Source of the DNA: Bacillota bacterium
Lineage (GTDB): Bacteria; Bacillota; Clostridia; Clostridiales; Clostridiaceae
Length of the DNA: 64,000 bases
Direction: 5' to 3'
Assembly (NCBI GenBank): GCA_021781655.1
Contig: JAJXWJ010000005.1
Span: 1 to 64,000, forward strand
Of the stretch, positions 23,842 through 47,039 are shown one piece after another. Below the pieces are notes generated by a model. The model saw only the letters and a list, made by a program, of their open reading frames with translations. It made no database searches and was not told where the DNA came from. Each line of letters opens with the position of its first letter. The stretch's first letter is position 1. Position numbers and translations under genes: made by a program.

Positions 23842-23989
23842 TGTATTGGTTAAATTAAGTTGGTAAGTTTTAATTACCTTAACTTATTGATATTGCCTAT
23901 CTAATATTTTTACTTATCCAAATTAAGTTGGTAAGTTTCTAAAATTACTTAGTATCATTTCTAAATTTTAATGTAATTAAGTTGGAAAG
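23842..23989 (+). repeat. Transposon left end with three spaced TnsB sites
   Basis: The 16-bp motif occurs at 23852-23867 and 23920-23935 (identical) and 23974-23989 (TAATTAAGTTGGAAAG, two changes). The spacing of 68 and 54 bp over about 150 bp copies the layout of the Tn7 left end. From 23990 to 24072 nothing else is seen. Confidence 0.9.
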
Positions 23990-24075
23990 TAATTTTGTAT
24001 AGCTATACATTCCTATTCATTCTTACAATATCCAAGCTTTCAAATTTCCCATTAATCAAAATGTATTTAAATTAC

Positions 24076-24351
24076 TTAAAACTCTATATAATCGTGTAAT
24101 ACGTTCTTAAGCATATATTTTCTTGCATCCTCAGAAGAGTATTCACTTGTATTATATATTACAGTTGAATAGTCATGATAGTTATTTTTTTGAACTTCCA
24201 TTGCTTGAGCATTTTCATAACCTAACTCTAATAAGCCATCAAATAACTTTCTAGATACGGACCTACTGTCCATAGAATCTATATCATTCCTGGTTACAAC
24301 TCCATTCAACATAAATACTTGAACAACTTGATTAAGTAATTCTTCTTCCAT
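24076..24351 (-). CDS. Small cargo protein, unknown
   Basis: A 91-aa acidic protein, started at ATG 24351 because GGAGG lies seven bases before it; the upstream in-frame start at 24387 lacks a site. The sequence (LNQVVQVFMLNGVVTRNDIDSMDSRSVSRKLFDGLLELGYE) looks helical. No family is recognised. It is the cargo gene nearest the left end and stands alone on the minus strand. Confidence 0.6.
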   Translation of the reverse strand: MEEELLNQVVQVFMLNGVVTRNDIDSMDSRSVSRKLFDGLLELGYENAQAMEVQKNNYHDYSTVIYNTSEYSSEDARKYMLKNVLHDYIEF

Positions 24352-24518
24352 AGTTTCCTCCACAAAATTCAGCTTATTTTTTATCATATAATTTTTATAC
24401 TTAAATCATATTAAATTAAACTTTCTAACATTCGCAGATGATAACACAATTGTCAAAAATAAAATTATTTACTTAACTTGCCTTTATGTAATAAACATAT
24501 ATTTTTGACCTCATGCCG

Positions 24519-27500
24519 TTATTTTCCTTCTTTTTCTTCTACATATCTGATTAATTCAACAATATAATCAATATCTTCATCAGTACTGAATAAAAGATTA
24601 TCTTTAATTAACTTTATATATTTTTTCATGTTGAGTTTATCTTCTTTAAACATGGCAAGATAGCTTACTACAAAACTTACAAATGCTATTGCAACATTAA
24701 ATAATTTTATAAATTCACTTGATTGGATAATTTGAGAATAAATATTTTGTGTAATCGCTCTGAGTCTATATATTTTATTCATACTTAAAACTATTCTAAT
24801 AGAACAATTCTTAATGAGTTTCTCAAAATCATCTTTAACTTCCGGAAAACTTCTACTAACTGAATACATATTATATCTCATTTTGCCGATATAGATATCC
24901 ACGAATTTAATAAATTCAATAGATACTTTTTCAAAATCTTCAACTGATATTTCATCCTTGATTCTTTTTAGTACTTCAACGTAAACAAGCGCAAAACTCT
25001 TATAATCAGCATTTTTTCCCATTCTTAAAAAAGGTTTAATACCTTCAATGCCATTATCTTGATAACATATAAAGATATCATTTGCATCAAAACTAATAAA
25101 TTCTGCTTTGTATTTTCGGAGATTCGCAATTGTTAGTGCTACTAATATTCTTATTGATGGCTTCTTCTGCTTCAAAAATTGAAAAAAAGTGTTAATATCA
25201 ATCATATAATTTGTATCAAATTCTCTAGATGCATATACCTCAGTATTCAAGAAAGGCACTTTAAGATATTTTGATAAAGCAATACAATCAAGTGTATCCT
25301 CAGGTAAAAATTGTTTTGAATCTGTTTTCAACTTAATTCTTATATCAACTGGGACTTCTTTAATATTTACTGATTTATTAACGTAATCTAAAATGTTATT
25401 AGAAGAGTTTCTAATAATACCTGATTGCCTTTCTTTTACAATTGTTATTGCATTATAAGGTATAAGTACTTCTTTAAATGAATCAAGTAAACTCAACGCA
25501 CCAACTTCAGATAAAATTGCTAAAGTATTAGCATCAAGTAAAATTTTATCATCAATTTTTTTAACATCTTCAATTGAATTATATATATTTCCATCGGAGA
25601 TTTGGACATTAGTAAATGGATAATAATTATTTAAAAGTATTTCTTCTATTCCAGTACCAACCAATTTATTGTAAACTGTAATTCCAATTATACCTTGAAC
25701 AAAATACGAGTTTATATGCGATAGATCTCTTTTCCCACCAATCATATCCTCCAATTTATTAAGTAAATCTTGTCCACTTTCATTCTCTGAATGTTGAAGC
25801 ACTTTAAACCATTTTGGATTATGATTCTTAGAATAATATTCAGCCATATATATAAAAGCATCATCAGTTCTACCATTATTCATGCAAAATGCTGTATAGT
25901 ATTGATGAAATTGAGAATCCAAATCGTTCTTAACATATTCCTTAATTTCCTTAAGCTTTTCAAATGCTTGTTCTATATAACCCTTCTCTTTTAAAACAAT
26001 AGAATAATAAATATAATATAATTCAGGTTTCTCTAATTTAAAAGGCTCAACATATCCAAGATAAAATTCTGCATCATATAACGAATTGCTACTAAGTTTC
26101 AGTTCTACAGCCTTTATTAAATTATTATAATTTCCATCAATTTTAAACAATTCAAAATAAGCTTTAGCTTCATTATCTAAATCACCCTTAAAAGTGTAAT
26201 AATTAATCCCCAATATTGCTTTACTAATTGGAAGTAGCATTTCTAAATTGCTATTCTCATACTCATTAAAGAAATCCTCATACTTTTCATTCTTAAGTAG
26301 ATACATCAATCTATTATAGAGAATAAACGGCATTTGAAATCCTATAATCTGATATTTACCAGTATCTATATTTTGAAAAAATTCATCCAATTCTTCAGAT
26401 AAATTATAATCAAGTAGCAATACAAATATATCGTATATAACAAGAGAATTATTAACAACTCGTTTAATCTCTTTAATTTCTTGAATAACCTTATCTTTCT
26501 CATTTCTCTTATCAAGAAAATGGATATAATTCATCCAAAGAATTTCATCATTGTTATCTTTGTTAAATTTTTTATAATAGTGAATATATCTGATATCTTG
26601 ACTATCTTCTATTAATGCATTCAATAAAGCCAGTTGTAATATTTTATCATTTTGGTATTCATTTTCAAGTACTGGAACCAATAAATTAATTTCCGATTCA
26701 TAATCTTTTTTAATTTCATAGTAAAATGATTTGTATTTCACTTTTTCATAATTGTTAAGATAGTTGAACGTTTCTTCGTTATATATTCCATTAATAATTT
26801 CAGCTTCCACGACATACTTCAAAATATCTGGTTTTGACAAATCAACAAATTTCATACACTCGCTTTGTATGTCAAGAATCCTCTTATGTTTGTTCGTTAT
26901 AGAAAAGATACAAAACAAGTATGGAAAAATCAATCTTGATATTAAATGTAAAGTATCAATATTTCTATTTTCATAGATCTCCTCTAATTTCACTCTTGCT
27001 TTTTCTAATTGTATAAAGTCAATTTTATCAAGAGTCACCATCTCATTTTCTTCAATTTCCTTAACTGATTTAAAATATTCACAAACAGCAATTGCTATTT
27101 CTTTTGGAAGACTTTTTATGAATTCATTTGACTTAATATAATTTTCTTGTGCATAGTCAAAATCACGATAATTAAAGGCTAAATCACCTAAACTTGCATA
27201 AATAGTTGCTTTGTCTTTAATTTCTATAATAGCATTTTTAAGTAATTTATCTAACTGCATTTTACCCTCTATATAGGATATATCCTTATTTGTTGCCCGT
27301 AACAGAATACCCCAAGCTAAAGCATTGAAATAATCACCTTTTGCCTTAACGGCTTTTTCATTGAGAATAATTGCTTTCTCTAGTCGTTTATTATTATATT
27401 CCCATATAGATAATAAAAAATAATATCTATGAATCTCTTTTATATCTTCTCCTAATGCATCAATTTTGATTGACCATTTATTTATAATGTTCTCATCTGC

Positions 27501-27875
27501 TTCTAAATTTATATAACAGTTAAGTAATCCATTATAAACAAGAAATTTTTCATCATTGATATAATTAATAAATTTATCAGATTCAATTAACTTCTCATAT
27601 TCATTTATTGCTAAATATGACTTACCATCAGTAATTAGCTTTTCTATTGGAATAATTTTTTCTTTAAATTCTATTGAAGAATCTTTATTTAAAGCAGTCT
27701 CATAAATTTCTTCAAGCTGTTTAGTAATATCAAGATGGAAGTTATATTCTTTAATCTCTACATTATTTGCAACAATGGAATTACTTGCGTCTATGTTGCC
27801 ATTAACACTACTTGGGCTAAACATTACCTTTTCATTCTGAAAAATCCCTCGAAATAAATCATTAATCTTCCACAT
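24519..27875 (-). CDS. TPR-repeat protein with PIN nuclease domain
   Basis: A 1118-aa protein. Residues 24-40 carry a short motif (GNIDASNSIVANN). Residues about 50-700 are helical repeats of TPR type (KSYLAINEYEKLI, YIEQAFEKLKEIKEY). A PIN-type RNase domain lies at about 775-930, with acidic residues in LLDANTLAIL, EDTLDCIALSKYLKVPFL and the following aspartates. The C-terminal about 180 residues are helical and hydrophobic in part. The layout resembles TPR-PIN conflict-system proteins. It is translated 16 bp after a small membrane protein gene. Likely role: antiphage RNase, by inference. Confidence 0.75.
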   Translation of the reverse strand: MWKINDLFRGIFQNEKVMFSPSSVNGNIDASNSIVANNVEIKEYNFHLDITKQLEEIYETALNKDSSIEFKEKIIPIEKLITDGKSYLAINEYEKLIESDKFINYINDEKFLVYNGLLNCYINLEADENIINKWSIKIDALGEDIKEIHRYYFLLSIWEYNNKRLEKAIILNEKAVKAKGDYFNALAWGILLRATNKDISYIEGKMQLDKLLKNAIIEIKDKATIYASLGDLAFNYRDFDYAQENYIKSNEFIKSLPKEIAIAVCEYFKSVKEIEENEMVTLDKIDFIQLEKARVKLEEIYENRNIDTLHLISRLIFPYLFCIFSITNKHKRILDIQSECMKFVDLSKPDILKYVVEAEIINGIYNEETFNYLNNYEKVKYKSFYYEIKKDYESEINLLVPVLENEYQNDKILQLALLNALIEDSQDIRYIHYYKKFNKDNNDEILWMNYIHFLDKRNEKDKVIQEIKEIKRVVNNSLVIYDIFVLLLDYNLSEELDEFFQNIDTGKYQIIGFQMPFILYNRLMYLLKNEKYEDFFNEYENSNLEMLLPISKAILGINYYTFKGDLDNEAKAYFELFKIDGNYNNLIKAVELKLSSNSLYDAEFYLGYVEPFKLEKPELYYIYYSIVLKEKGYIEQAFEKLKEIKEYVKNDLDSQFHQYYTAFCMNNGRTDDAFIYMAEYYSKNHNPKWFKVLQHSENESGQDLLNKLEDMIGGKRDLSHINSYFVQGIIGITVYNKLVGTGIEEILLNNYYPFTNVQISDGNIYNSIEDVKKIDDKILLDANTLAILSEVGALSLLDSFKEVLIPYNAITIVKERQSGIIRNSSNNILDYVNKSVNIKEVPVDIRIKLKTDSKQFLPEDTLDCIALSKYLKVPFLNTEVYASREFDTNYMIDINTFFQFLKQKKPSIRILVALTIANLRKYKAEFISFDANDIFICYQDNGIEGIKPFLRMGKNADYKSFALVYVEVLKRIKDEISVEDFEKVSIEFIKFVDIYIGKMRYNMYSVSRSFPEVKDDFEKLIKNCSIRIVLSMNKIYRLRAITQNIYSQIIQSSEFIKLFNVAIAFVSFVVSYLAMFKEDKLNMKKYIKLIKDNLLFSTDEDIDYIVELIRYVEEKEGK

Positions 27876-28459: not shown

Positions 28460-30307
28460 TTATACTTTAGTTCTGCTCACTTTATACTTTTGTAAAATGA
28501 GCTTATCCTTAATACTTGCCATTTTAAGTATTTTCCACTCTGGCAATTCAACTTCATTTTTATAAACATATTCGTAAATCACATCTAACCTTCTAAATCT
28601 AAATTCTTCTATACTTTCACAAACTGATTCTAAAAACTCTTTAGTATTAGGCATTTTATCTAATTGCATCGTTATTAATGCACGTTTGTGGATTCTCGTT
28701 CCAATTAATGATTTTGTTATTCTAATTGGTTTTATATTATTCTTAAGTGAATTATATGCTTCTTTTACAAGCCTTAATGTTTTATTATCTTTATCATTCC
28801 AATAATCGCTATAATCAATTGTATTTGTATTTCTCTTGCTTTTATCTGGCAGATTGTCTTCAAGCCATTTTCTATCATGTTTTAATGACCATAAATATTG
28901 TCTCGTTAATCTTTTTCTTATATTATTTCTAATTATATCAGGTTCTAATGCAATTATTTCAATAATTTCTTTTCTATATTGATTTCTCAAATCTTCTTTA
29001 TTTTTAAAATTTTTATCTATTTTATTTAATATTTTTCTATTTGTATTTAACAAATTTCTTATACCTAATTTTTCTGAATATTTTACTACAGTACCAGGAT
29101 CACAATGCATTTCCCTAGCTATTGCTCTTATAGATATATTAGTATTTACAAGTTCTTTTAACTTTGCCTCCCAAACATCTCCATAACTCCTAACTCTTCC
29201 AATATGCATTAAGTCTCCAGTTATTTTTCTAGAATAAATGAAGCCACAGTCACACTTAAATATTCCAATTGTACCTTTACTCTTGCAATCCGTTATTATT
29301 TTACAATCTTTAATTACTGGTTTCCTATAATTTGTACAGCATGGATTTAAACATAGCCAAGGTCTTTCAATATCTGATTTTACATGAACTTTTATCAAAC
29401 TAACAAACTTTTCTACATTACCACACAAAAAATCAATTAATAATATGTGCCTTAAAGGATGAAAAGTTTTATTGTGTTTTCTTACTATGTTATTAAGCCA
29501 ATTAAACTTATAATCTTCTTCTAAATCACTTTCAAGTATTTTAAGAAATTCATTTCCATAATGATTTAAAAATTGACTCTGTAATTCTACTTGGTTCACT
29601 CTTCCTTTTCTATTTGTTAATCCTTTTCGATACATTAAATAATCATATTTATCCTTAATTTCATCTATAAAATACGCTACATTATTATTGAGTATAAAGT
29701 AGACATCTTGAGCTATTCTTAATAACTTTTCTTTATTCTCATCTTTAGGATAATTAATATCAAAAAACATACTTTCTTTATCAAAACAAATATATTCTTG
29801 CCTCTTTGAATTCACAACATATGGCTTTAATAAGCATCCATGTTTTTCACAAACAAATACACCTTGTACTTGATGAGTTCTGTGAATATACGCTTCACCA
29901 TACTCACTAAATTCTTCTTTTGAACATACTGGGCAATAATTTATATAATCTTTTTTACAAATTGTATTACGCATCATTCCAATTTTATATTTTATTGATT
30001 TTCCATCAGAGCTTATCATAATCTTTTTAATTTTATTGATTTTTTTCCTTCTCGTAAAACATGAATACAATGGTAATAAAGTATTATTTTCTATAATATC
30101 ATTAATATTAATATCAATTTTGCCGTTTAAATTTTTAATAAATTCTTTCAAATGACTTTGAAATTCTATCGTTGGTATTATATCTATTGTATTAAAGACA
30201 TCTTTTAAAGTAAATCTCAAATTTGTATTTCCAGAATAACTACTATACCTTCCAATTACACTATATATTAATTCGTCCTTATATATGGATGGTAAATTAT
30301 AAATCAT
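28460..30307 (-). CDS. tnsD: Tn7-type target selector TnsD/TniQ, operon copy
   Basis: A 615-aa DNA-binding protein that directs TnsABC to a fixed chromosomal site. The N-terminal TniQ domain has a zinc motif with Cys125, Cys128, His142, His145, Cys153 and His156 (YIHRTHQVQGVFVCEKHG). A second Cys cluster lies in WLCLNPCC and FKCDCGF. A helix-turn-helix (IRAIAREMHCDPGTVVKYS) follows at about 405-425. ATG 30307 follows AAGGAAG and overlaps the end of tnsC, so translation is probably coupled. As the tnsABC-linked copy, it is the best candidate for recognising metG. Confidence 0.92.
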   Translation of the reverse strand: MIYNLPSIYKDELIYSVIGRYSSYSGNTNLRFTLKDVFNTIDIIPTIEFQSHLKEFIKNLNGKIDININDIIENNTLLPLYSCFTRRKKINKIKKIMISSDGKSIKYKIGMMRNTICKKDYINYCPVCSKEEFSEYGEAYIHRTHQVQGVFVCEKHGCLLKPYVVNSKRQEYICFDKESMFFDINYPKDENKEKLLRIAQDVYFILNNNVAYFIDEIKDKYDYLMYRKGLTNRKGRVNQVELQSQFLNHYGNEFLKILESDLEEDYKFNWLNNIVRKHNKTFHPLRHILLIDFLCGNVEKFVSLIKVHVKSDIERPWLCLNPCCTNYRKPVIKDCKIITDCKSKGTIGIFKCDCGFIYSRKITGDLMHIGRVRSYGDVWEAKLKELVNTNISIRAIAREMHCDPGTVVKYSEKLGIRNLLNTNRKILNKIDKNFKNKEDLRNQYRKEIIEIIALEPDIIRNNIRKRLTRQYLWSLKHDRKWLEDNLPDKSKRNTNTIDYSDYWNDKDNKTLRLVKEAYNSLKNNIKPIRITKSLIGTRIHKRALITMQLDKMPNTKEFLESVCESIEEFRFRRLDVIYEYVYKNEVELPEWKILKMASIKDKLILQKYKVSRTKV

Positions 30308-32006
30308 AAAAACTGCTTCCTTCACTTATATCTTCAAGAATATCTTTCTTATTTTCTTCTTGAAAATTTTCAAGAAGTTCATTATTCTTTTTCCTAGCCC
30401 TTTTGGAATTTGATTTTTTATTTGATTGATTATTTTTTTGTTCTTTTGATTCCACTTCCTCTAGCAATATCTTCTTAGCAACTTCTCTTACTAAAATACT
30501 AATATCCTTATCGAATCCTATCTTATTAACTACTTCTACCGCTACCTTTTTAATTAAATTCTCATCATATTGCATCGTATTATATAATGTAATTACTATT
30601 GAATCAATAATCATTTGTTTATTTAGATTATCCTTAAACATTTTACTTTTATAAATTTCACTTATTTTCTCCGCAGCCTTATTTCTGCTTAAATATTCTT
30701 CTATTTCCATATCTGGTGCTTTTATATCGTCATACTTACTAATTTGCTCAGGATCGTTTGATTCGAAAGCCTTAATTATTGCATCTGTTAATTTGAATTT
30801 TTCATCAGCCACCTTATTAATTAAATCTAGTGTGATTTTTTCTTGACCTGAAAGTATGGCTTCAAGTTGAACCGCCATAAATAACTTATTTACTCTATCA
30901 ATTATCCCTATTGTTTTTTTATACATTAATTCTTTGATTTCATTTGTTAATGGAGTTTTGAATTTCACCCATTGGTATTCCCAAAGAAATTCGATAAATA
31001 AATCCCATTCACTATCCGTTTTCTTCAACCTAAAATACTCAACAGTCCCAATTCCTTCAGCCTTTCTACCTTGTCTATATTGTTCACCTAAAATTGTTTT
31101 GACTGTTTTATATGTCCCTATATAAACAATAGGTATTCTTATTGTGTTAGTTAAAGTTACAAAAAAATTTAATAATGATTCTCCATTATTTGTATGCCTA
31201 ATATGCTGAATTTCATCTACAATCAATACTCCAATTGCATACCTTAAGGCGAGAAATGACATTGATGCAATCATTTTATCCACTTTTGTACCTGTTTTCC
31301 CATATTGATATGAATAATTAGTTCCTAATAACAAATCTATTTCTTGAAAAAAGTTATCACATACCCCTGAAATTTTTCCGTCGTATGAACAATCAACTCT
31401 TAACCAAGGAATTTGAGTAAATAAACTTTTATTGCCATTATAATTAATTATATGTCTTATTACTTGGGGATATTGAGTTAGAGCATTATTTACTCCAGTT
31501 GTTTTCCCCGAACCACTTGAACCCATAACTAAAAAACCATTTGATGGATTTGATGCTACAGAACATTGAGTAATAAGTTCATTATTCTCATTATTACTAT
31601 TAAATATATTACCGCTAGCATTTCTTAATATTTTCAAGTACTGAGGAGTGCCAATTTTTTTATTAACATATCCATTTCTAATAACAATCGACAAATATTC
31701 GTCTGTTAACAAATTAGAGGCTGTAGGTAATAAATAATCAAGTAACCTAAATATCGCATGAATTCTACACTCATTTGAACTACATCTTTCTTCTTCAGAA
31801 TACATGGGGAATTTTTTTATAAAATTAAATGCCTTTTCAGCGTTTTTTATAGGTGGCAAGGCTTCAATTAACAAATTCCCTCTATATGTGGCTTGCTCTT
31901 GTACTATATATCTTGCTTCTACATGCTCTCTAAACAAAAATTTTCCTCCACAAATATCTTCATATTGATTATCAATAAAGTCATTATAATATTCATAATT
32001 AAACAT
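30297..32006 (-). CDS. tnsC: Tn7-type AAA+ regulator TnsC
   Basis: A 569-aa AAA+ ATPase that links target recognition to the transposase. Walker A is GSSGSGKTT (162-170) and Walker B VLIVDE (260-265), followed by QHIRH. The arginine-containing segment EQYRQGRKAEGIG lies near 325. The acidic/Lys-rich last 100 residues probably contact TnsA-TnsB, as in Tn7. It begins 20 bp after the tnsB stop. Confidence 0.95.
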   Translation of the reverse strand: MFNYEYYNDFIDNQYEDICGGKFLFREHVEARYIVQEQATYRGNLLIEALPPIKNAEKAFNFIKKFPMYSEEERCSSNECRIHAIFRLLDYLLPTASNLLTDEYLSIVIRNGYVNKKIGTPQYLKILRNASGNIFNSNNENNELITQCSVASNPSNGFLVMGSSGSGKTTGVNNALTQYPQVIRHIINYNGNKSLFTQIPWLRVDCSYDGKISGVCDNFFQEIDLLLGTNYSYQYGKTGTKVDKMIASMSFLALRYAIGVLIVDEIQHIRHTNNGESLLNFFVTLTNTIRIPIVYIGTYKTVKTILGEQYRQGRKAEGIGTVEYFRLKKTDSEWDLFIEFLWEYQWVKFKTPLTNEIKELMYKKTIGIIDRVNKLFMAVQLEAILSGQEKITLDLINKVADEKFKLTDAIIKAFESNDPEQISKYDDIKAPDMEIEEYLSRNKAAEKISEIYKSKMFKDNLNKQMIIDSIVITLYNTMQYDENLIKKVAVEVVNKIGFDKDISILVREVAKKILLEEVESKEQKNNQSNKKSNSKRARKKNNELLENFQEENKKDILEDISEGSSFYDL

Positions 32007-32026: not shown

Positions 32027-34144
32027 TTACTTATTTTTTGTAATATTATCTTTTATGAACTTATTAAAAAAGCTTCTTGAACTTCTTGAAATTTCTTCGT
32101 CTTCTTCCATTTCTTTCTCTAAATTCTTATATTCTTTTTCATTTTTAACATCCATTTTTAAATATGGATTTCTTGTGAGTGTATTCTGCTCATTATCAAT
32201 TTTTCTTTCAATCAATCTATTTTCATTTATGTCTTCAATTACTATCTTATTATTTCCACTTTTTTTAGCAGCTTCTTTTACTATCTTATTTCTTTTTTCG
32301 CTTCCTTTTGCAAACAGTTGGTCATTGATATCGGTATATATTGATTTTTCCTTAAAATTAATCAATTTATCATAACTTTCAATTTCTTCCAATGTTCTAT
32401 CAATATAAATATCATTTGATGTCATCTTTCTATTAATTTTGCATTGTATATATTTATTTGTTGATTTATGATAAATAAGTATTTCATTCATACAATTTGA
32501 ATCGAACGCAATCTCAATTTTTCTATTTTTATTTAATCTAGAAAACCATAATTCTTCTTCTGCCAATTTACATGTATAAAGCATATTTTTAAATTTTATA
32601 CCTTTCTCAGTTATCGATGCATTTTCGTGCCTTAATAGATAAAATCTAAGTTTATCCTCTGGCTCTTTCCTTAATAAACCCTTTTTATTTTTGATACCCC
32701 AATTCCAAATTTCATTTGCACTTGGTTTTACCCCAGCCCAAACTAGTTCTTTTTCAAGAGGATAATCTTTCATAATCATTGCATTTCTTTCCAAAACGGC
32801 TTCAATAACTATTTGAGTAAATTCATAGAGATCAAGCTTAGCATCTTTCCTATAATCCTTTTTCCCACGTTCTCTATACTTAGTCATAATTATTCCTGGC
32901 AAATCCGATTTAATCATATTCTCAATTATATTGAATTTCTGTTCGACTGTCCCTTTTGCCTGACCCTCAAATGTAGGTGCATATTCAGTCGATATCTTTA
33001 AATACTTTACTAACATATCAGAATTCTTAGTAAGGAATCCTCCTCTATCACCCATAATTATTTGTGGAGATCCATCTACATTCAATTCCTCAATATTTTC
33101 TTCTATGCCATAATATCTGCAATAATTCTCCTTAGGTTGAATTGTATTATAAAGCAATGATGCGTATCCTGACCATGAATCCTGCTCAAGTCCAATATGC
33201 ATTCCAGTGATTTTTGTAGAAAAACAGTCAGCTGATATGTAAAGAATAGGCCTACCAATGCCTAAACTTCTATCAATTCTATTTACAAGATATATTGGAA
33301 ATATTGTGGAATCTACTTGATATCTTAGTCCAGGATTAAATCCATCATATACCGTATCTGACTTTATAGGCTTAACATTATTCTGATAATTCTTTTTACC
33401 TTTTCTGTCCTTTTCCATTTTATCCTTATCTATGCTTTTCTTATACCAATTATAAAATTGATATATCGTTGGTTTTTCATACCACAGCTTATCACTATAA
33501 TAATCTCTTTTAATATTTCTAAAGGTCTTTGCAAGTGTAATTTTATCATTATTTCTATAATATCTATCAATTCCATCTTGAAAAACTTTTTTCACATTCT
33601 CATCTATAACGATACCTATATTATCTCCCATCATACTTCCCGCTACGCCTTTTCGACCTGGCTTTTTTGTATATGTTTTATCGACACACCTTCCACAATT
33701 ATTATATTTATCAAACAAGGCATCCTTAGTCCTTCCTCCTTGCCAATACTTTCTCAAATACTTGTATATGCACTTTTCAGAAACATCATATTTATCCATA
33801 GCCTGTTTAACAAATTTACCTCTATATTTTCTAACGAAACAAAAGGGAATATTTTCTAAATTATCAATCATATTTACAATATTATAACTGTTTTCAAGTT
33901 TTTCTTTTCTATTTTCATTTAAATTTTCTTCAAATAAAATCACATAATCATCGTTTGGTATGATGGTATATGCTCCTTCTTCGAACCCATTATTAATATC
34001 TTCTAATAACTTAACGTTTATATTCAATTTGTTGATACCCATTTGGATACAATAACATTTTCCTTGTTCTGCATCAATCCATAAAATCCTCTCGATTTCA
34101 TTAGTATTTAAATTTTTAAGTATGTCATTAGTTCTAACTTCCAT
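32027..34144 (-). CDS. tnsB: Tn7-type DDE transposase TnsB
   Basis: A 705-aa retroviral-integrase-type transposase that binds the transposon ends and joins 3' ends to target DNA. The triad is Asp278 (YQVDST), Asp366 (IMGDRGG) and Glu401 (TVEQKF). The spacings of 88 and 35 residues equal those of Tn7 TnsB. Helix-turn-helix domains precede the catalytic core. ATG 34144 follows GAGGTGATTCTT; a GTG nine bases upstream is less likely. The gene starts 19 bp after tnsA. Confidence 0.96.
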   Translation of the reverse strand: MEVRTNDILKNLNTNEIERILWIDAEQGKCYCIQMGINKLNINVKLLEDINNGFEEGAYTIIPNDDYVILFEENLNENRKEKLENSYNIVNMIDNLENIPFCFVRKYRGKFVKQAMDKYDVSEKCIYKYLRKYWQGGRTKDALFDKYNNCGRCVDKTYTKKPGRKGVAGSMMGDNIGIVIDENVKKVFQDGIDRYYRNNDKITLAKTFRNIKRDYYSDKLWYEKPTIYQFYNWYKKSIDKDKMEKDRKGKKNYQNNVKPIKSDTVYDGFNPGLRYQVDSTIFPIYLVNRIDRSLGIGRPILYISADCFSTKITGMHIGLEQDSWSGYASLLYNTIQPKENYCRYYGIEENIEELNVDGSPQIIMGDRGGFLTKNSDMLVKYLKISTEYAPTFEGQAKGTVEQKFNIIENMIKSDLPGIIMTKYRERGKKDYRKDAKLDLYEFTQIVIEAVLERNAMIMKDYPLEKELVWAGVKPSANEIWNWGIKNKKGLLRKEPEDKLRFYLLRHENASITEKGIKFKNMLYTCKLAEEELWFSRLNKNRKIEIAFDSNCMNEILIYHKSTNKYIQCKINRKMTSNDIYIDRTLEEIESYDKLINFKEKSIYTDINDQLFAKGSEKRNKIVKEAAKKSGNNKIVIEDINENRLIERKIDNEQNTLTRNPYLKMDVKNEKEYKNLEKEMEEDEEISRSSRSFFNKFIKDNITKNK

Positions 34145-34163
34145 AAGAATCACCTCATTAAAT

Positions 34164-34955
34164 CTATACCCAAACTTTCATTTCATAATAATTAAACTTT
34201 TTCTTAAAATCAACTTTAACTTCTTTATGAGTTATAAGGTACTTGAAAAAATTTAAACCTTCTCCTTCTTCCCATCCCATATCTTCTTGAAAATCCTTTG
34301 TTGTTTTCATAATATCCATATTACATTTGAAAATTTTCTCTTTAAATTTATTAATCAGCCAATCCATTTCATACTCATCGAATTGCATTTTATCATTCCA
34401 GAAATAATCTTGATATATACTGTAAATATTCTTTCCAATAACCTTGCATTCTTCATCATGCAAAATCACTCCCCAATCTATACCTTTTTGTGACCAATAT
34501 TCTTTTTCTATTAGGAATTTTTCTTGAGTACGTATCTTATTAAAGTCATCTTCAGTTTTTAGTGTTCGAACTATTTCTTTTACTACATCACCTTTCTTTA
34601 CTAAAAGGTTAAAATCAGACGTCATAACTGTTTTCATATTACGATCACTTCTATTTTTGGGTGGATGAATTATATTCATTTGATCTGCAATCAATAATGT
34701 CTTTTCTATTGGCAACAACGGAAATTGCTCTCTTATATCCAATACATTATCCTCCATCTGATAAATTAGAAAAACCCATAACTCTCCATCGGATAATAAA
34801 TAATATACCCTGTTATGTTTCCATCCTAAAATTTTATGAGTACGGCTATCAGAAGGAAGCTCATGAGGCAATATCCATGGTTTATAGTTTTCTCCATATC
34901 CTTGTCCTCTTTTTTCTCTAAGTCTAGCTTTATCAGTTTTTCTAACCATTGTCAT
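34164..34955 (-). CDS. tnsA: Tn7-type endonuclease TnsA
   Basis: A 263-aa restriction-like endonuclease that cuts the 5' ends, making the element leave cleanly with TnsB. Catalytic residues are Glu58 (LLSDGEL), Asp114 (MTSDFNLL) and Lys133 (RTLK), in step with Glu63, Asp114 and Lys132 of Tn7. The segment VLDIREQFPLLP is as in Tn7 TnsA. A C-terminal winged-helix region follows. Its presence indicates cut-and-paste rather than replicative movement. ATG follows GGAGGGTG. It is the first gene of tnsABCD. Confidence 0.95.
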   Translation of the reverse strand: MTMVRKTDKARLREKRGQGYGENYKPWILPHELPSDSRTHKILGWKHNRVYYLLSDGELWVFLIYQMEDNVLDIREQFPLLPIEKTLLIADQMNIIHPPKNRSDRNMKTVMTSDFNLLVKKGDVVKEIVRTLKTEDDFNKIRTQEKFLIEKEYWSQKGIDWGVILHDEECKVIGKNIYSIYQDYFWNDKMQFDEYEMDWLINKFKEKIFKCNMDIMKTTKDFQEDMGWEEGEGLNFFKYLITHKEVKVDFKKKFNYYEMKVWV

Positions 34956-35413: not shown

Positions 35414-37186
35414 TTGTTAAATAACATAACTGAACCTTTTGATGATGAAATATTTTATAGTTGGTTTTGTAGATATCATTTACTTAGTGGTAATATCAAT
35501 TCAACATATACAGATATGGACTTTTTTGGTATCAAAACGTATAACAAAAACATTAGCTATCCATGCAATTTAAACTATCTTTGCTCACAGCTCCCATTTA
35601 CCTTTAATATCTCATATGATTCAATTATAAATAACAATACATGCTTTCCAATTTTTAAACCATTTTTAAAAAAGTCTTTTTCAAATTACTTATTAGAGCT
35701 CATGAAATACGGAACAACTACACCCAAAAGTAACATAAGAAAAATTTCATCTTTATTTAATAATAAGATAATAAAAATTTGTAACCAATGTATTCTTGAA
35801 GATAAAAAAAATTATGGTATATCATATATTCATAGGATTCACCAAATCCCTGGATGTTTTATATGCCAACACCATCATATACCTCTTGAATATATAGATT
35901 TATCAGGTAAATCATATATAAATAATTATTATTCTATATTAGATAATATCATTAAACTTAAGATTCCTTTTAAATTAGATAATAAAATCCACAATGATTT
36001 GTATGAACTACAATCTGATGCTATTAATTTTTTAAAATTCAATATTAATGATTATACTGTTGAGAAAGTTATAGCTAAATACAAACAAAAGCTAATTTGC
36101 GATGGATATTCAACCATCAAAGGGGTAATTAGATACGAAGATTTGTCAAATAACTTTTTAAACTTTTATTCTAAAGACCTTTTAGATTTTTTCAATCTTA
36201 ATATAAGTTTAAACACTCTCCCAAGCCAAAACCCATTATGTAATTTAGTAAGAAATTCATCGACTAAATTTAATCCAATAAAACATTTCTTATTTATCAA
36301 ATTTTTATTTGGAAGTGTAGAAAATTTTATTAATGCTCCTGAAGAATTTTTACCATTTGGTGTTGGCCCATGGCCCTGCCTAAATAGTGCTGCAACACAT
36401 TACAAAGAAAATATAATACCTTCTTATGAGTTAAGGAAGTCTACTCTTGACAATAACTTATTTGGTGTATTTGAATGTAAATGCGGCTTTGTCTATACTA
36501 GATCTCTACCAGAGAAAGGTAATGATGATAGATATAATAAGCGATCTGTCCTAAATAGAGGTGAGGAATGGGAAATCAAAGCTACGGAACTTATTATAAG
36601 TGAAAATTACACCTTAAAGAACCTTGCTTTACTTCTAAATTGTAGTACTGGTAAAGTTATCTCCCATGCTATAAAAAACAAATTGCTACATCACATAGAA
36701 ACAAAAAAGAAATATAGAAAGATAAAAGATAAGTTCCAAAGTAGCCAAAACTTACTAGACGAATATAAGCAAAAAATAACGCAATTTATATCTGAGCATC
36801 CAGATATGTCAAGAAGTAAGATAGCTAAAGTATTAGTCGAAGAATGTAAATCAGTCCTAAGAAAAGATAAGGAATGGTATGATAAAAATATGCCACCTAA
36901 ATTAATACCTTGTAATAATAATAACTATGTTGATTGGCATGAAAGGGACCTAGAAACAAGCAAACTAGTCCAGGTTGCAATTAAGGAGATAGAAGAAAAC
37001 ACAGATCTTAAATTAAGCAAACAAAACATCGCTAAAAAGACTGGACTAACATTCATTGTAGAATCAAGGTCTCAATCTAAAATGCCAATAACACAAAAAA
37101 TTATTGTAGATTCTAAAGAAACAAAAGAAGAATATATTAAAAGAAAAACTGAATTTACAATTATGAACTTGAAGAGAGAAAAATGA
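35414..37186 (+). CDS. Second TnsD/TniQ target selector
   Basis: A 590-aa TnsD-like protein on the opposite strand to tnsABCD. The TniQ start is FDDEIFYSWFCRYHLLSGN, and zinc residues Cys123, Cys126, His140, His143, Cys151 and nearby His are intact (YIHRIHQIPGCFICQHH). In the second cluster the operon copy reads WLCLNPCC but this protein reads WPCLNSAA, so two cysteines are lost. A helix-turn-helix (KNLALLLNCSTGKVISHA) lies at about 400. It starts with TTG after AAGGTGTG. It probably recognises a different target, either a second chromosomal site or a mobile plasmid. Confidence 0.85.
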   Translation: MLNNITEPFDDEIFYSWFCRYHLLSGNINSTYTDMDFFGIKTYNKNISYPCNLNYLCSQLPFTFNISYDSIINNNTCFPIFKPFLKKSFSNYLLELMKYGTTTPKSNIRKISSLFNNKIIKICNQCILEDKKNYGISYIHRIHQIPGCFICQHHHIPLEYIDLSGKSYINNYYSILDNIIKLKIPFKLDNKIHNDLYELQSDAINFLKFNINDYTVEKVIAKYKQKLICDGYSTIKGVIRYEDLSNNFLNFYSKDLLDFFNLNISLNTLPSQNPLCNLVRNSSTKFNPIKHFLFIKFLFGSVENFINAPEEFLPFGVGPWPCLNSAATHYKENIIPSYELRKSTLDNNLFGVFECKCGFVYTRSLPEKGNDDRYNKRSVLNRGEEWEIKATELIISENYTLKNLALLLNCSTGKVISHAIKNKLLHHIETKKKYRKIKDKFQSSQNLLDEYKQKITQFISEHPDMSRSKIAKVLVEECKSVLRKDKEWYDKNMPPKLIPCNNNNYVDWHERDLETSKLVQVAIKEIEENTDLKLSKQNIAKKTGLTFIVESRSQSKMPITQKIIVDSKETKEEYIKRKTEFTIMNLKREK

Positions 37187-37862: not shown

Positions 37863-38086
37863 TGTAGACACTAAAAGCCTAACACTTTAAAATAAAGAAA
37901 AAGAAGGAAGAGGTAAATCTTATTGAATATCTGGATTTTAATTCTGCTAGACTTGCTATTTTTGAATATATAGAAACCTAGTATAACATAAGAAGGCTAC
38001 ATAGTAGCATTGGCTATATGACTCCACAAAAATGTGAAGATTTATCTAGAAATTCTGCATAATTTGTTCAACTTTTTGTGTCCAAG
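37863..38086 (+). mobile_element. IS3-family insertion sequence remnant
   Basis: The stretch 37921-38062 encodes the end of an IS3/IS150-type OrfB: ARLAIFEYIET, a stop in place of the expected Trp, then YNIRRLHSSIGYMTPQKCED. The ends are imperfect inverted repeats sharing GACAC-AAAAG-AACA (37863 side and about 38060-38086). Most of the transposase is deleted, so only about 220 bp remains. Confidence 0.7.
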
Positions 38087-38732: not shown

Positions 38733-39785
38733 CTAAATATGCAAAATAAACTTTGAGAAAATCAGACCTAAAATAAAACTAACTGCAACTAATATATACA
38801 TACCTTTCATTTTCTTTTTATTTTCCTCTTTTATGCGATTAATTTCTTCTATGAATTTATTTTCTAAATTTTTCATATCATCATTCAAATCTGTAATCTT
38901 ATTTTCATATTGTTCTTTCACTTCTGATTCTTTCTTTTGGCGTTCAATAACATCATCGTTCATTCTTCTAAAGTAATCACCTAAATTAGCTGGTGTATCC
39001 GATTTTTTATCAGCTATCTCATCTAAAAACACCTTATCATCTGCATGTCCAATTGCAGTTAAGAATACAGTTTTCATTTCAAGTACAGCTTCAGCAATAT
39101 CTGGATCATTAAATATTTCAAGTCCACTTCCACCACCTCTTGATAAAGCAATAATATCATATTGCTTTTCATCCAATTCTCTTATTTGATTGATTATTTC
39201 TTCTTTTGATGAAAGATTTATTCTATATTCATTTATAGCGTATGCAGTTATTGAATTTTGCATTGACTTATATATATCTTTATCTACTATACCATTATTT
39301 CCAAATATAAATGCAATTCGTACTAGTGTATTATTATATATTTTATTTCTTATTAATCCATCAACTTCTCTATATCCTTTATTAACTTTTTCCTCTCTAA
39401 TATTAAATGTTTTATATTGTTTTTCTGTAATAAGTTTTCCTTCTTCATTTTTTATTTCAATAACATAAAAACTTATTTGTATAAATCCTTCATTTTTTAC
39501 CTTTCTATTCAAATATCCATAAAAGGTATATACAAAGCCATCTTTTAGTCGTTCTCTCAATTCTTCATTTACCACCAAGGTAATTTCAAATTGGCTATAC
39601 CTATCAACTATCTTGTCATAATAGCAGTTATTTTCATATAATTTTCTTCCTACGCATCTGTATACTCCATTTAAATAAATTTGTATTTTCTCTTCTTTTA
39701 TATTCAATGCACTATGATATATATTCACTATAGATTGTGGTGTATAGCAATCATTTATTTCTAATTCTAATGACATCTTACTCAT
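38733..39785 (-). CDS. Membrane-anchored exonuclease VII large-subunit-like protein
   Basis: A 350-aa protein built like XseA but shorter. Residues 1-120 are an OB-fold-like domain (IQIYLNGVYRCVGR, FTFYGYLNRKV region). Residues about 140-270 carry the ExoVII core motifs SRGGGSG (215-221), IFNDPDIAEAV and TAIGHADD (243-250), then TPANLGDYF. Residues 275-328 form a charged coiled coil, and 329-348 a C-terminal transmembrane helix. No small subunit (xseB) is adjacent. The anchor is not usual for XseA. ATG follows AGGAG. It probably acts on DNA at the membrane, perhaps against incoming phage; this is inference. Confidence 0.75.
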   Translation of the reverse strand: MSKMSLELEINDCYTPQSIVNIYHSALNIKEEKIQIYLNGVYRCVGRKLYENNCYYDKIVDRYSQFEITLVVNEELRERLKDGFVYTFYGYLNRKVKNEGFIQISFYVIEIKNEEGKLITEKQYKTFNIREEKVNKGYREVDGLIRNKIYNNTLVRIAFIFGNNGIVDKDIYKSMQNSITAYAINEYRINLSSKEEIINQIRELDEKQYDIIALSRGGGSGLEIFNDPDIAEAVLEMKTVFLTAIGHADDKVFLDEIADKKSDTPANLGDYFRRMNDDVIERQKKESEVKEQYENKITDLNDDMKNLENKFIEEINRIKEENKKKMKGMYILVAVSFILGLIFSKFILHI

Positions 39786-41583: not shown

Positions 41584-43356
41584 TTATATTTTTTGTTCTC
41601 TTATTTTTGTTACAACTGTTTTATAGTTATTTATATTACTTTCATGCCTCCTTGTCCAACTTTCAACTAATTTAGGATCTTCACTTGTCGGCCTTGGATT
41701 GTTTAGCTTTATTCTTACCCTCGAAGGTATTTTTATTGATTCTCCTACAATAACAGCTTCACCAATTCTTAATGAAGGTAATAAATCTATTAAACTATTA
41801 AGATTTTCTGGTGATGAGGATTTAACAATAGATTGATCTCCAGAGTTTGTTAAGCGTAATGCTATTAGAGTTCCTATTTGAGCTAAAATTGTTTCTGAAA
41901 TTTCTGAAGGTCTCTGAGATATAACTAATGAACCAACACCAAATTTACGTCCCTCTTTAAAAATTCTTTCGACAGCATTTTTTGAATAACAATTGCTTTC
42001 GTTTTTATTTAAATAAGTATGAGCTTCTTCAAATGCAAGTAATAATGGTCTTTTTTTCCCAGTATATGATTCATTCCTTCCCCAAAACATACTGTCATAA
42101 ATAAATCTTGTTATTAATCCAACAGTTATATCTAATACTTCAAATGGAACCCCGCTCAGATCTAATATTACTAATCTTTCATCGCTTCCAATCCATTCAT
42201 TAAGAAGATTATGTAAATCTTTAGATGACTTTTCATCCTTATATTCTCCTGGATTGAATAAATAATCATATCTAGAATCCTTTAGTCTTGAAAGTATTTT
42301 CTTCTCATATGCATAATACTCAATATGTTGGCTTTTATAAGGTGCAGTGTTACTAGCTGTTTTTAAATGAGACTTAAATTTAGCACCTAATAAGTTGTCA
42401 AAATCTCCATCATCTTCAATTTCAGCTGTTTCTTTTTTTTGTTCATCTTTTTTAGTTGTTGTAAAGCTTGCATTTAACCACCAATTCATTTCATACCATA
42501 ACTTTCTTGCATTGAATGGTATAGGCGAATCTGCTGTAATAAGGTCTTCATTTACTTTACCTGCTTTTAGATCATAATTTTCTTTCTTCAGTGAAGTTAC
42601 TAATTCACGGAATAGCCTATATTCAGTTCTCTGATCATCAGTTGGCTTAGCTGCAACCAAAAAATATGCCAATTCATCAAAATTCATTAACCAAAATGGA
42701 ATATAAAGTGGATTGTTTTTATCATTTATTTTTAAAACTTTAGCTTCTGGAAAAGCTGAAGCATATTCTCCATGTGGATCAACTAATATTATTCTTGATC
42801 CAACATAATCATTTAAAATTGATTTTAATATACTTACTGTAGTGTTAGACTTGCCACTTCCTGTTGACCCTAATATTGCACAATGTCTTAATATCAATTT
42901 ATGAATGTCAACATAAACACTAAGATTTTCAGATGAAGCATGTTTACCTATTTCAATTGATCCTTCATTCTTTTCACCATATATTTCGAACAAATCATTT
43001 TCTATAACTAAATGGACCTCATCATTAATTGTAGGATATGTACCAATTCCTTTTTCAAATTCATCATCTCCAATTTTCTCACCAACAAGTTGAACAGTTA
43101 AAAATCTTGAACCAATATATTTATTTACTGAGCCTTCTTTCAAATCCTTGCTTGCTGTATTGCTAACTGCAGAGACTATTCCATAGATGGATATATTTCC
43201 AATGGGAATTTTTACAAATGTCCCAATTTGTCCAATCTTATATAACCTTCCATTTATAATTGGTGCAGAAGATGGAATATGATCGCTAACCTCAACCTCT
43301 ATAGAACTAGAATCAACTCTTATAATTTTCCCTAAGTATGTAATATCACTTTCCAT
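41584..43356 (-). CDS. herA: HerA-family ATPase of SIR2-HerA defence pair
   Basis: A 590-aa hexameric DNA-translocase-type ATPase. The N-terminal HAS-barrel covers about 1-130. Walker A is GSTGSGKS (163-170), and Walker B is LLLAFEEAH at about 435, followed by the GRKFGVGSLVISQRPSE sensor segment. Next to a SIR2 protein, this matches the SIR2-HerA antiphage system, in which a large complex depletes NAD or degrades nucleic acid on infection. Its start overlaps the sir2 end by 11 bp, which suggests translational coupling. Confidence 0.92.
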   Translation of the reverse strand: MESDITYLGKIIRVDSSSIEVEVSDHIPSSAPIINGRLYKIGQIGTFVKIPIGNISIYGIVSAVSNTASKDLKEGSVNKYIGSRFLTVQLVGEKIGDDEFEKGIGTYPTINDEVHLVIENDLFEIYGEKNEGSIEIGKHASSENLSVYVDIHKLILRHCAILGSTGSGKSNTTVSILKSILNDYVGSRIILVDPHGEYASAFPEAKVLKINDKNNPLYIPFWLMNFDELAYFLVAAKPTDDQRTEYRLFRELVTSLKKENYDLKAGKVNEDLITADSPIPFNARKLWYEMNWWLNASFTTTKKDEQKKETAEIEDDGDFDNLLGAKFKSHLKTASNTAPYKSQHIEYYAYEKKILSRLKDSRYDYLFNPGEYKDEKSSKDLHNLLNEWIGSDERLVILDLSGVPFEVLDITVGLITRFIYDSMFWGRNESYTGKKRPLLLAFEEAHTYLNKNESNCYSKNAVERIFKEGRKFGVGSLVISQRPSEISETILAQIGTLIALRLTNSGDQSIVKSSSPENLNSLIDLLPSLRIGEAVIVGESIKIPSRVRIKLNNPRPTSEDPKLVESWTRRHESNINNYKTVVTKIREQKI

Positions 43357-44545
43357 TTACAATCTCCTCTATAACTTGTTTCCTACCTGAATTTATAACA
43401 AAGAAATCAGCTAATTTGTTAAAATCTCCAAGTATAAATTTTTCAGATGACTCGTCCCAGTAATTTTGCCATTTTTCGTTTGGATTTAAATCATTCTTGT
43501 TAAATGACCATTCCCCAATCACCCCATTTATTATAGCCTTATTGGGTCCAAATACATTTAAATTTAAATAAGAAGATACAAGCTTATAAATATTTTCTAC
43601 TTCTTCATCCTTATAAAAGAATACTTGGACAAAAAGTCTATTATTTTGTCTAAGACAATTAAAAATTATTTCATTAATATGCTCATCAGAAAATGAATAA
43701 CCAGTGAAGATAAATAATAATTCTCCACTTAAAAGATAGTTCTTTAGTCTATCAAAATACGCAATAAAAGGCTGTTTCCTTGAAATAACATATTTTTCTT
43801 TTGACGGATAAATTACAAGTTCATTATTAACACAATCTATTGAATCTATCTTACCAACTCTATTTATTCTATAATTGTTTTTATCTTTATCTTTTTTCCA
43901 AGACCAATTTAGGGAACCATGTATTTTCCATAATCTTATCCAATTATGCGTTAAATCGCTTTGTTGCACAAAAGTATCTATGCTTTCTTGCCAAAAAAAC
44001 GGCTCATATGAACCGACAAATCCATCAAAATAAGGAATCATCGTTTCCTCAAGTGCTCTCTCTATAATCAAATCATAATTAGTAGTAAATATTTCCTTAG
44101 AATAATTTCTATTTTGCATATTTAGCCACGATAAAAATTTTTTAGTACTATTAATATTAGCATTTTTCTCTTTATCCATAATAATTTTAAAGATATTCTT
44201 ACATATCTCTATATCTAATTTTTTTGCTAATTCTCCATTTACATTTATATATTCCCTGTCATTTCGTTCACCTGTTATTTCTCTAATTTGTCTTATATGA
44301 TTTAATATGTTTTCAATAGTAATATTTATATCTGGAAATGTTAAAATTAAATTATTCTTTATATTTTGAAAACTAGTTAAAAGTTCATCTTCAAGCAGCT
44401 CTTCTATTTTATTCGTTAGTTGTTCAATATTCGGTATCCCAAGTGCACATGAACTACCCGCTCCAAAAAAGAAACCTAAATTTTTCGAGTATGATAATTG
44501 ATTTTTTAATTCTTTTACTTCTCTAATAATATCAAATTTTTCCAT
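43346..44545 (-). CDS. SIR2-like NADase of SIR2-HerA defence pair
   Basis: A 399-aa protein with a SIR2-type NAD-binding fold. Visible motifs are GFFFGAGSSCALGIP (24-38), IFTTNYDLIIE near 160 and LWKIHGSLNW near 210. ATG at 44545 follows GGAGG with eight bases between; the in-frame start at 44572 is less likely. It is the first gene of the operon with herA and the KTSC gene. Family knowledge assigns NAD hydrolysis or nuclease activity to such proteins. A 34-bp palindrome lies upstream. Confidence 0.9.
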   Translation of the reverse strand: MEKFDIIREVKELKNQLSYSKNLGFFFGAGSSCALGIPNIEQLTNKIEELLEDELLTSFQNIKNNLILTFPDINITIENILNHIRQIREITGERNDREYINVNGELAKKLDIEICKNIFKIIMDKEKNANINSTKKFLSWLNMQNRNYSKEIFTTNYDLIIERALEETMIPYFDGFVGSYEPFFWQESIDTFVQQSDLTHNWIRLWKIHGSLNWSWKKDKDKNNYRINRVGKIDSIDCVNNELVIYPSKEKYVISRKQPFIAYFDRLKNYLLSGELLFIFTGYSFSDEHINEIIFNCLRQNNRLFVQVFFYKDEEVENIYKLVSSYLNLNVFGPNKAIINGVIGEWSFNKNDLNPNEKWQNYWDESSEKFILGDFNKLADFFVINSGRKQVIEEIVNGK

Positions 44546-44572
44546 AACTCTATCCTCCGTCATATAATACAA

Positions 44573-44606
44573 TAATATAAATTATATTATATATTATAAT
44601 TTATAT
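44573..44606. promoter_or_regulatory. Palindrome upstream of sir2-herA
   Basis: AATATAAATTATA and TATAATTTATATT face each other across a short centre. It lies 28 bp before the sir2 start, a good place for an operator. The XRE-type neighbour could bind it, but in such AT-rich DNA a chance palindrome is possible. Confidence 0.45.
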
Positions 44607-44702
44607 TACAACTTACCTATTTTATTACATTATATTATATTATATATCATATTTGTACATTATCTTCAATTTATATTATTTATTTTGTTTTTTGCAATAA
44701 TA

Positions 44703-44755
44703 AAAAACATAAAAAGATATACCAATATTTCCTCATATCTTTTTATGTTTTCTTC
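44703..44755 (-). terminator. Terminator after the XRE/ImmA gene
   Basis: Arms AAACATAAAAAGATAT and ATATCTTTTTATGTTT flank a 14-base loop, 18 bp past the stop. Confidence 0.7.
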
Positions 44756-44772
44756 CAGATAAATGAATTATT

Positions 44773-45942
44773 CTATTTAATTATTTTCAATTTAGGTTTA
44801 TTTATATTTTCAATATAATTTTCAAAGTAACCTTCAGGTAAAAAGCATAAATTTTCTATATCTTTATAACCCATACCTATATTATCTAAAAACTCCACAG
44901 CAGTAATAATATGATTTTCAATTAACAATTCTATAGCTTCTTTAAACATATTTGGTCTTTCAAATTTAATATTATCGTCTAGTGGCTCTTTGGATCTCCA
45001 TCTCTTCATACTTATTTGTTTAAATAAATAAGTATATTGTTCATCGCTTACTATATTTAGTGAATGTGCTCTTACAATCATACCTGCAATAGAAACTTTC
45101 CACTTTTCTTTTAAATAAACAAAAGAATCCAAAGTAGTTGTATATATATCTTTTACGAATTCTTCAGCTGGCAATAAAAATGAACTTGCAAATTTTTTTG
45201 CTTCATTTTCAATAACAATGTAGTTTTTTTCAAATTCATGTTCTTGTAAATGCGAATGTAAAATTATATGCCCAAGCTCATGAGCTAAATCCATTCTTGA
45301 TCTTACAGCTGAATCTTTATCACTCCCCAAAATAACAAAAGGTACTCCAATACTTGTTAACTTTGAAAAGGCATCCACTTTTTCAGAGTTTAGTTCAATT
45401 CTAGTAATAATTATACCCTTCTTCAGCAATAAATTTGTTAGGTTATTTATCGGTCCGCTACCTAATCCCCAGTATTGTCTCAATTTTAATGCCACATCAT
45501 CTATATAATCATCATCAATGCCAATTTTATAGTTTAAATTCAAGTCTTCAGGTATATCAAAACTAGGAAACTCAATATAATTTTGAATAAATGAGTATAT
45601 TTCTTTCATAAATTCAATATTTTGCTCTAATGAAATCTTAGTTTTTTTACTAGTTGACCTAAGGCTTCTAAAAAATGTGATACCTTCAGACGAATTTTCT
45701 AAAGTGAATTTCTTATCTTTATAAAAAAATGGAATTGGGAAATCTAACAATTCAGAAATTTTTATTAAATTTTCTATTGGTATTTTAACAAGACCTGTTT
45801 CATACTTTGATATTATCTGTTTTGTTAAATCTAACTTTTCTGCTAAATCATTTAATGAATAGCCTCTAGCCGTCCTAGCTTCTTTTATCCTTATTGGTAC
45901 AACAGACTTTCTATTATTATCTGAAAAATCTAAATACCTCAT
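44773..45942 (-). CDS. XRE regulator with ImmA/IrrE metallopeptidase domain
   Basis: A 389-aa protein. Residues 15-70 are a helix-turn-helix of the XRE type (GYSLNDLAEKLDLTKQIISK). Residues about 165-260 are an ImmA/IrrE zinc peptidase with HELGH (221-225) and a following Glu in VIENEAKKFASSFLLP. Proteins of this kind cleave or bind repressors to switch mobile elements and toxin-antitoxin-like units. It starts five bases after its upstream partner, so the two form an operon. Confidence 0.92.
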   Translation of the reverse strand: MRYLDFSDNNRKSVVPIRIKEARTARGYSLNDLAEKLDLTKQIISKYETGLVKIPIENLIKISELLDFPIPFFYKDKKFTLENSSEGITFFRSLRSTSKKTKISLEQNIEFMKEIYSFIQNYIEFPSFDIPEDLNLNYKIGIDDDYIDDVALKLRQYWGLGSGPINNLTNLLLKKGIIITRIELNSEKVDAFSKLTSIGVPFVILGSDKDSAVRSRMDLAHELGHIILHSHLQEHEFEKNYIVIENEAKKFASSFLLPAEEFVKDIYTTTLDSFVYLKEKWKVSIAGMIVRAHSLNIVSDEQYTYLFKQISMKRWRSKEPLDDNIKFERPNMFKEAIELLIENHIITAVEFLDNIGMGYKDIENLCFLPEGYFENYIENINKPKLKIIK

Positions 45943-45947
45943 GTAAA

Positions 45948-46619
45948 TTACCTCATCTCTTGCTCATACTTTTTAATGCTGTCAATTATATCTTTCTTTA
46001 TATTTTCTCTCCCTAAAACTCTTTCATATGTATCATCATTATTCAAATATTCTTTTCTTACTAATCTTAATTTCTGAGTTATTGGAATATAGTCAATAAC
46101 ATTTCTATATTCACTATCTGGTATAACTATATTAAGAAAGTCTAATTTATCGTTCCTTAAATTGTATGTTATTATTCCATAATAAGGAACATCACCAACC
46201 TTTATCTCATTCTTATCTTCATATAGTTTCAATTGCTTACCTATAGTTGAATTTCCTAGAGAATACTCTTTTTTATATTGAGAAAACCCTGGAAGCATAT
46301 TGGGATTTTGAGCTCTACCCAATGTAAGCAAGAGATTACCTCTCTTAAGTTCCGTTCTTTTTTGTCCAAATGCCATGCCAATAGCATTGACTTCAAAAGG
46401 AAAGCTTTTTGGTATCCTATCAACATCAAAAAACCTCTTAATTATATAATTAATAAGCCTTCCTTTAAATTCACCAAAATAAGATCCTCTAAAAATATCC
46501 TGTTCCTTATCAATAAGTTCTGTAAAAACAATTGTAGCATCTTCAAAAATATTATAAATTGGTTGTAATAAATCATTTGACAGTTCATTTTTTATCAATT
46601 CTGACGATGAATTATACAC
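45948..46619 (-). CDS. Unknown partner of XRE/ImmA protein
   Basis: A 223-aa soluble protein without a recognised domain. Segments such as GEFKGRLINYIIKRFF, FEVNAIGMAFGQKR and DVPYYGIITYNLRND suggest a mixed alpha/beta fold. It is first in a two-gene operon with the XRE/ImmA gene, five bases apart. That arrangement resembles toxin-antitoxin or effector-regulator pairs, where the protease domain acts on the partner. The role is inference only. Confidence 0.6.
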   Translation of the reverse strand: MYNSSSELIKNELSNDLLQPIYNIFEDATIVFTELIDKEQDIFRGSYFGEFKGRLINYIIKRFFDVDRIPKSFPFEVNAIGMAFGQKRTELKRGNLLLTLGRAQNPNMLPGFSQYKKEYSLGNSTIGKQLKLYEDKNEIKVGDVPYYGIITYNLRNDKLDFLNIVIPDSEYRNVIDYIPITQKLRLVRKEYLNNDDTYERVLGRENIKKDIIDSIKKYEQEMR

Positions 46620-46954
46620 TTTCTCACCCCATTTAAATCTTCTTGTCTATTATTATAAGATTTTAATGTGAAATCGTCAACCAAATTCCATTAATTTTTA
46701 TATCAATAAATTGTATTAAATACTTTACAGTTGGATATTTTTTTTAAACTTAACCAAATCAACACAGCTTCTATTTAATTATATTATCTAAAATCAAGAA
46801 CTCCCAATGATTTTTTCATTAGAAGTTCCTAATTAATTATAAGTTTCTTTTTTTGTGGTGAGTAATTTTTTCATCCTATTAGTTACGTGGTAAATGCCCC
46901 CATTAACTTTAATTTCAGTTCAGACTAATGTTTTTATATTGATGTATATTTATG
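46620..46954. other. Intergenic region next to right end
   Basis: It holds an imperfect hairpin at 46796-46830 (AAGAACT...AAGTTCCT around AATGA/TCATT), which could stop transcription from metG or from within the element. No gene is seen. Confidence 0.4.
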
Positions 46955-47039
46955 CATTTTCAACTCATTTCTAACTTACCAACTTAATTTAAACTTACCA
47001 ACTTAGTTACAAACTTACCAACTTAATTTAGTCGATACA
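46955..47039 (-). repeat. Transposon right end with packed TnsB sites
   Basis: CTTACCAACTTAATTT occurs at 46975-46990, 46994-47009 (one change) and 47014-47029. A weak fourth copy has CAACT at 46961, keeping the 19-20 bp step. This packed array copies the Tn7 right end. The end is the one next to metG, as in Tn7 at glmS. Confidence 0.9.

Follow-up and report, generated by a model that had tools for sequence, protein, structure and literature searches.

In the family Clostridiaceae, homologs of the Tn7-like transposon described below are found, where they can be placed, mostly at the end of glmS. The locus described here, in a 64,000-nucleotide stretch of a Clostridiaceae contig (the "window" below), raises the question of whether a complete transposon of this type has inserted at the end of a different gene, metG, and, if so, which of its proteins selected the site. 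Judged by its ends, target-site duplication and genes, the Tn7-like element occupies positions 23842 to 47039, a length of 23,198 bp. The following features define its borders:

23837..23841, read directly: target-site duplication TCTAT, left copy
23842..23867, plus strand: left-end terminal inverted repeat of 26 bp, with 23 matches to the right one
23852..23992, plus strand: three TnsB-site-like 19-mers near the left terminus, spaced apart and starting at 23852, 23920 and 23974
46972..47029, minus strand: three TnsB-site-like 19-mers of the right end, nearly head-to-tail
47014..47039, minus strand: right-end terminal inverted repeat of 26 bp, with 23 matches to the left one
47040..47044: right copy of the TCTAT target-site duplication, spanning the metG stop codon

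From position 23842 the left end reads TGTATTGGTTAAATTAAGTTGGTAAG, opening with TGTAT; the right end, reverse-complemented, reads TGTATCGACTAAATTAAGTTGGTAAG, the last base of its ATACA being 47039. An earlier note on this DNA had claimed TGTAT at both ends, 23 matches in the 26 terminal bases and a perfect TCTAT duplication, and all of these were read where it had put them. At this base composition, a 5-bp match is expected by chance with a probability of 0.0024. In a survey of all TGT..ACA pairs of the window that bracket the tns genes and carry a matching 5-bp duplication (n = 348), the 23842/47039 pair showed 26 of 30 terminal matches, the runner-up 18 of 30. A TnsB-site-like 19-mer resembling AAATTAAGTTGGTAAGTTT is present three times at each end; the left copies extend across about 150 bp, whereas the right ones fit within 68 bp. 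Tn7 shows the same asymmetry between an end with separated sites and one with tightly packed sites, and shares the TGT..ACA termini and the 5-bp duplication. The combination of TGT..ACA ends, several TnsB-site repeats and a 5-bp duplication places the element among the Tn7-like transposons.

The tns operon is central in the element and flanked by cargo genes, an arrangement that departs from Tn7. The genes for the transposition proteins are:

28460..30325, minus strand: tnsD1, target selector of the glmS-type clade (Pfam full-length TnsD and TniQ)
30297..32006, minus strand: tnsC, AAA+ ATPase (Pfam TniB/AAA)
32027..34153, minus strand: tnsB, DDE transposase (D281, D369, E404; Mu-transpos_C)
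34164..34955, minus strand: tnsA, endonuclease (E58, D114, K133; Pfam TnsA N and C domains)
35414..37186, plus strand: tnsD2, second full-length TnsD, divergent (Pfam), outside the operon

Sequence comparison matched TnsA, TnsB, TnsC and TnsD1 to Tn7 proteins of solved structure. Alignment of TnsB with Tn7 TnsB (7pik; E 2e-66) yielded the triad D281, D369 and E404, whose spacings of 88 and 35 are those of Tn7, as had been proposed; the Mu-transpos_C match of this protein is found only at the Pfam cut-off. TnsC carries a Walker A motif (GSSGSGKT) and the motif VLIVDE. In TnsA, residues E58, D114 and K133 align with E63, D114 and K132 of Tn7, and the position of Tn7 Q130 is taken by T131; T or A stands here in all eight clostridial homologs compared. 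The claim that TnsA keeps "all catalytic residues" was thus slightly overstated, correct for the first three residues and not for Q130. That tnsA, tnsB, tnsC and tnsD are intact was borne out by Pfam domains and open frames at the expected places. The element therefore has the full Tn7-like set: TnsA and TnsB with catalytic residues, a AAA+ ATPase TnsC and a TniQ/TnsD selector. Absent from the earlier note were tnsD2 (35414-37186), the off-glmS location and the selector exchange discussed below.

Homology of TnsA and TnsB predicts cut-and-paste movement. By homology with Tn7, TnsB would join both ends to the target and TnsA would cut the other strands, leading to excision of the element; one of the TnsD proteins would bind the end of a gene and position the insertion, with TnsC relaying the target signal. 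One might instead regard the element as a decayed, immobile remnant, on account of a degraded IS3-like fragment recognized by eye inside it (about 37880-38060) and of long non-coding stretches downstream of tnsD2. Yet every core gene is open and retains its catalytic motifs, and the ends and the duplication are exact, making decay very improbable. With its borders at the top of the 348 end pairs and its core genes open, the element can be considered complete and apparently intact, as had been claimed; the transposon is real and probably functional.

The insertion site involves two host features:

23786..23828: host hairpin that, in an uninterrupted site, would come after metG (and after the hemerythrin gene)
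47041..48981, minus strand: metG, host gene, intact, with the element inserted at its stop codon

The right TCTAT copy spans the metG stop codon, leaving the gene intact. The orientation of the insertion is the usual one, with the tnsA-side end toward the gene, as in Tn7. When the two flanks are joined, a 20-pair hairpin (-30.9 kcal/mol) comes to lie 8 bases past the metG stop; since this restores a hairpin after metG, the element probably separated the gene from its terminator. The possibility that the hairpin belongs to the element was ruled out: several near-identical copies occur elsewhere in the host genome, identifying it as a dispersed, terminator-like host repeat. To the left of the element the window contains the hemerythrin gene, a gene of the UDP-glucose dehydrogenase family and then tatD (20665-21426). 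The genus being represented by a single genome in the collection searched, the metG neighbourhood was compared with that of 29 more distant relatives found through metG. Within the stretch fetched, tatD follows metG in 17 of the 29; neither a hemerythrin match nor a tns gene was found beside metG in any of them. Because tatD also sits slightly further left in the window, the flanks appear compatible with an uninterrupted ancestor.

Taken as a whole, the locus is best explained, with high confidence, as a complete Tn7-type transposon with TnsA, TnsB, TnsC and TnsD that lies away from glmS, at metG. Such systems are already well known and the element is ordinary in kind; its unusual points are the off-glmS insertion, the presence of two full-length TnsDs and the exchange of a selector. 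Tn7 itself (E. coli, TnsABCDE, attTn7 at glmS) resembles it in its TnsA, TnsB, TnsC and TnsD homologs and DDE spacing, but is found at glmS rather than metG; in the window element no TnsE was detected, and a second TnsD is present.

Homologs of TnsD1 (E <= 1e-30) were found in 41 of 208 genomes of the family. Wherever the gene-side end was readable, distances to glmS were taken from the printed sequences: at 15 distinct sites, homologous Clostridiaceae elements lie 23-27 bp beyond the stop codon of glmS, which is the geometry of Tn7 (PMC2918618). Most other elements also lie near glmS, as seen from the positions of TnsD versus glmS across genomes; several are without placement, because TnsD and glmS are on separate contigs or tens of kb away from each other. 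In this sample, no element but that of the window was shown to abut a gene other than glmS; its relatives stand about 25 bp beyond the stop codon of glmS and the window copy does not. Its lineage normally homes to glmS. In the TnsD tree, TnsD1 falls in the glmS-type clade, grouping with TnsDs of elements that have a single detected TnsD and sit at glmS; from this placement, glmS would be the expected target of TnsD1.

The remaining proteins have a different closest relative. By its TnsABC and D2 sequences, the sister of the window element is a 29.0 kb element at glmS in another Clostridiaceae genome (G191), with TnsA 72%, TnsB 64%, TnsC 70% and D2 49% identical. The two share the divergent tnsA/tnsD2 layout and similar ends; they differ in target gene and cargo, and the D1 of G191 is merely 37% identical to TnsD1. 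The nearest relatives of TnsD1 are found in the G042 element (58% identical) and in the Clostridium bornimense N41 element (50%); in these two elements, identity to the window proteins is as low as 41-44% for TnsC and 33-34% for TnsB. With strong support on both sides, the TnsC tree pairs the window element with G191 and the TnsD tree pairs D1 with G042/N41. This conflict indicates an exchange of selector, the simplest reading being that the window lineage apparently took a glmS-type selector from a G042-like element. The G042 (at glmS) and N41 elements also have a second TnsD, but theirs belongs to another clade and is placed at the glmS side. Apart from G191, which was found through the TnsD1 homolog search and holds the one closer relative of D2, no D2 homolog above about 33% identity was detected in 391 genomes of the class or on plasmids. 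A search of phage records for TnsC relatives gave no match.

Possession of two TniQ-family selectors likens the element to the dual TniQ-TnsD Tn7-like elements of Faure et al. 2023 (PMC10293859). Those usually combine one large and one small selector, whereas both TnsDs of the window are full-length (about 600 aa), and D2 is divergent and encoded outside the operon. The same survey reported few examples fitting selector exchange, in contrast to the exchange indicated here. The window element makes visible an exchange of glmS-type selectors between lineages, in a Clostridium-type host.

Which selector, then, led the element to metG? Tentatively, we infer that TnsD1 may have guided a secondary insertion at a stretch of metG that weakly resembles attTn7. 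Scored with a matrix of glmS 3' ends, metG at the Tn7 spacing ranks among the best 0.3-1.6% of coding positions read in frame, and the metG of the window has the best 24-nt score among 23 metG genes compared. By our own count on printed sequences, it matches three of the seven positions listed as critical for E. coli TnsD (PMC2918618). Thousands of genomic positions would equal its matrix score. The resemblance to attTn7 is thus weak, if in the right register, and may be taken as a hint, not as proof. The idea that metG is an evolved homing site of TnsD1 was set aside, the nearest D1 relatives (G042, N41) residing in glmS elements.

TnsD2 might instead be a dedicated selector for the 3' end of metG, the element homing to glmS via D1 and to metG via D2. 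Elements that use two selectors for different targets have been described (PMC11406308; PMC10293859), the insertion has the usual orientation and lies at the 3' end of a gene, and TnsD2 is full-length and open, two lineages having preserved it intact at 49% identity. If this were so, the locus would reveal a new attachment site for Tn7, adjoining an essential gene, and an element with two protein-guided homing sites. However, the only close relative of TnsD2, that of G191, sits in a glmS element, the metG stretch at TnsD footprint distance varies among relatives and would make a poor homing site, and none of the 29 relatives has an element at metG; we consider such a role of TnsD2 unlikely. 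It is also rather doubtful that the insertion was unspecific or took some other route, reaching the gene end by chance or through tolerance. There is a single instance at metG, a hairpin lies a few bases from the insertion and, by a rough estimate, a few percent of random positions would fall this close past a gene end; against this, Tn7-type elements seldom insert without a selector (PMC11406308), and the orientation fits selector-guided insertion. A secondary insertion guided by TnsD1 remains the reading that we favor. The division of labour between the two TnsDs is made testable by a complete element with defined borders, which could also provide a site-directed insertion tool for clostridia.

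The cargo on the two sides of the tns genes includes the following:

24519..27875, minus strand: 1118-aa protein without family match; TPR-like repeats and PIN-like C-terminal part by eye only
38733..39785, minus strand: protein resembling the exonuclease VII large subunit, hydrophobic stretch at its C terminus
41584..43356, minus strand: HerA-like helicase, SIR2-HerA type defence (PADLOC)
43346..44572, minus strand: SIR2-like protein (PADLOC)
44773..45942, minus strand: RmrA-like protein, HTH and ImmA/IrrE protease (PADLOC)
45948..46619, minus strand: RmrT-like partner (PADLOC, weaker match)

PADLOC thus called two pairs. The adjacent SIR2-like and HerA-like genes constitute a SIR2-HerA system, a defence function predicted from the genes only. 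The second pair, in which an RmrA with an ImmA-type protease adjoins the more weakly matching RmrT, is a predicted toxin-antitoxin defence system of the RosmerTA type (PMC10440598). Tn7-like elements commonly carry defence genes (PMC8649781). The exonuclease VII-like protein (38733-39785) is possibly a membrane-anchored defence protein. A CRISPR-associated transposon was considered and rejected, no Cas protein being present among the cargo proteins scanned; the TniQ matches of TnsD1 in the cargo defence scan are shared family matches. The degraded stretch at 37880-38060 looks, by eye, like the end of an IS3-family transposase.

In the G042 element, tnsA is split by an insertion (L076:15331-18691) whose genes are IS66-type by eye; the element is probably immobile as a result. 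In the host of the window element, glmS is cut off at about codon 552 by the end of its contig (C73), and a search of the assembly did not recover the glmS 3' end. Occupation of glmS by another element was considered as a conceivable reason for the insertion at metG instead. No second copy of the window element was found in the genome. A different Tn7-like element occupies positions 2705-19040 of contig C70, with the duplication AGAGC and a TnsB 35% identical to that of the window. Its left flank resembles the end of yet another Tn7-like element, which suggests a tandem array of such elements, possibly at glmS.
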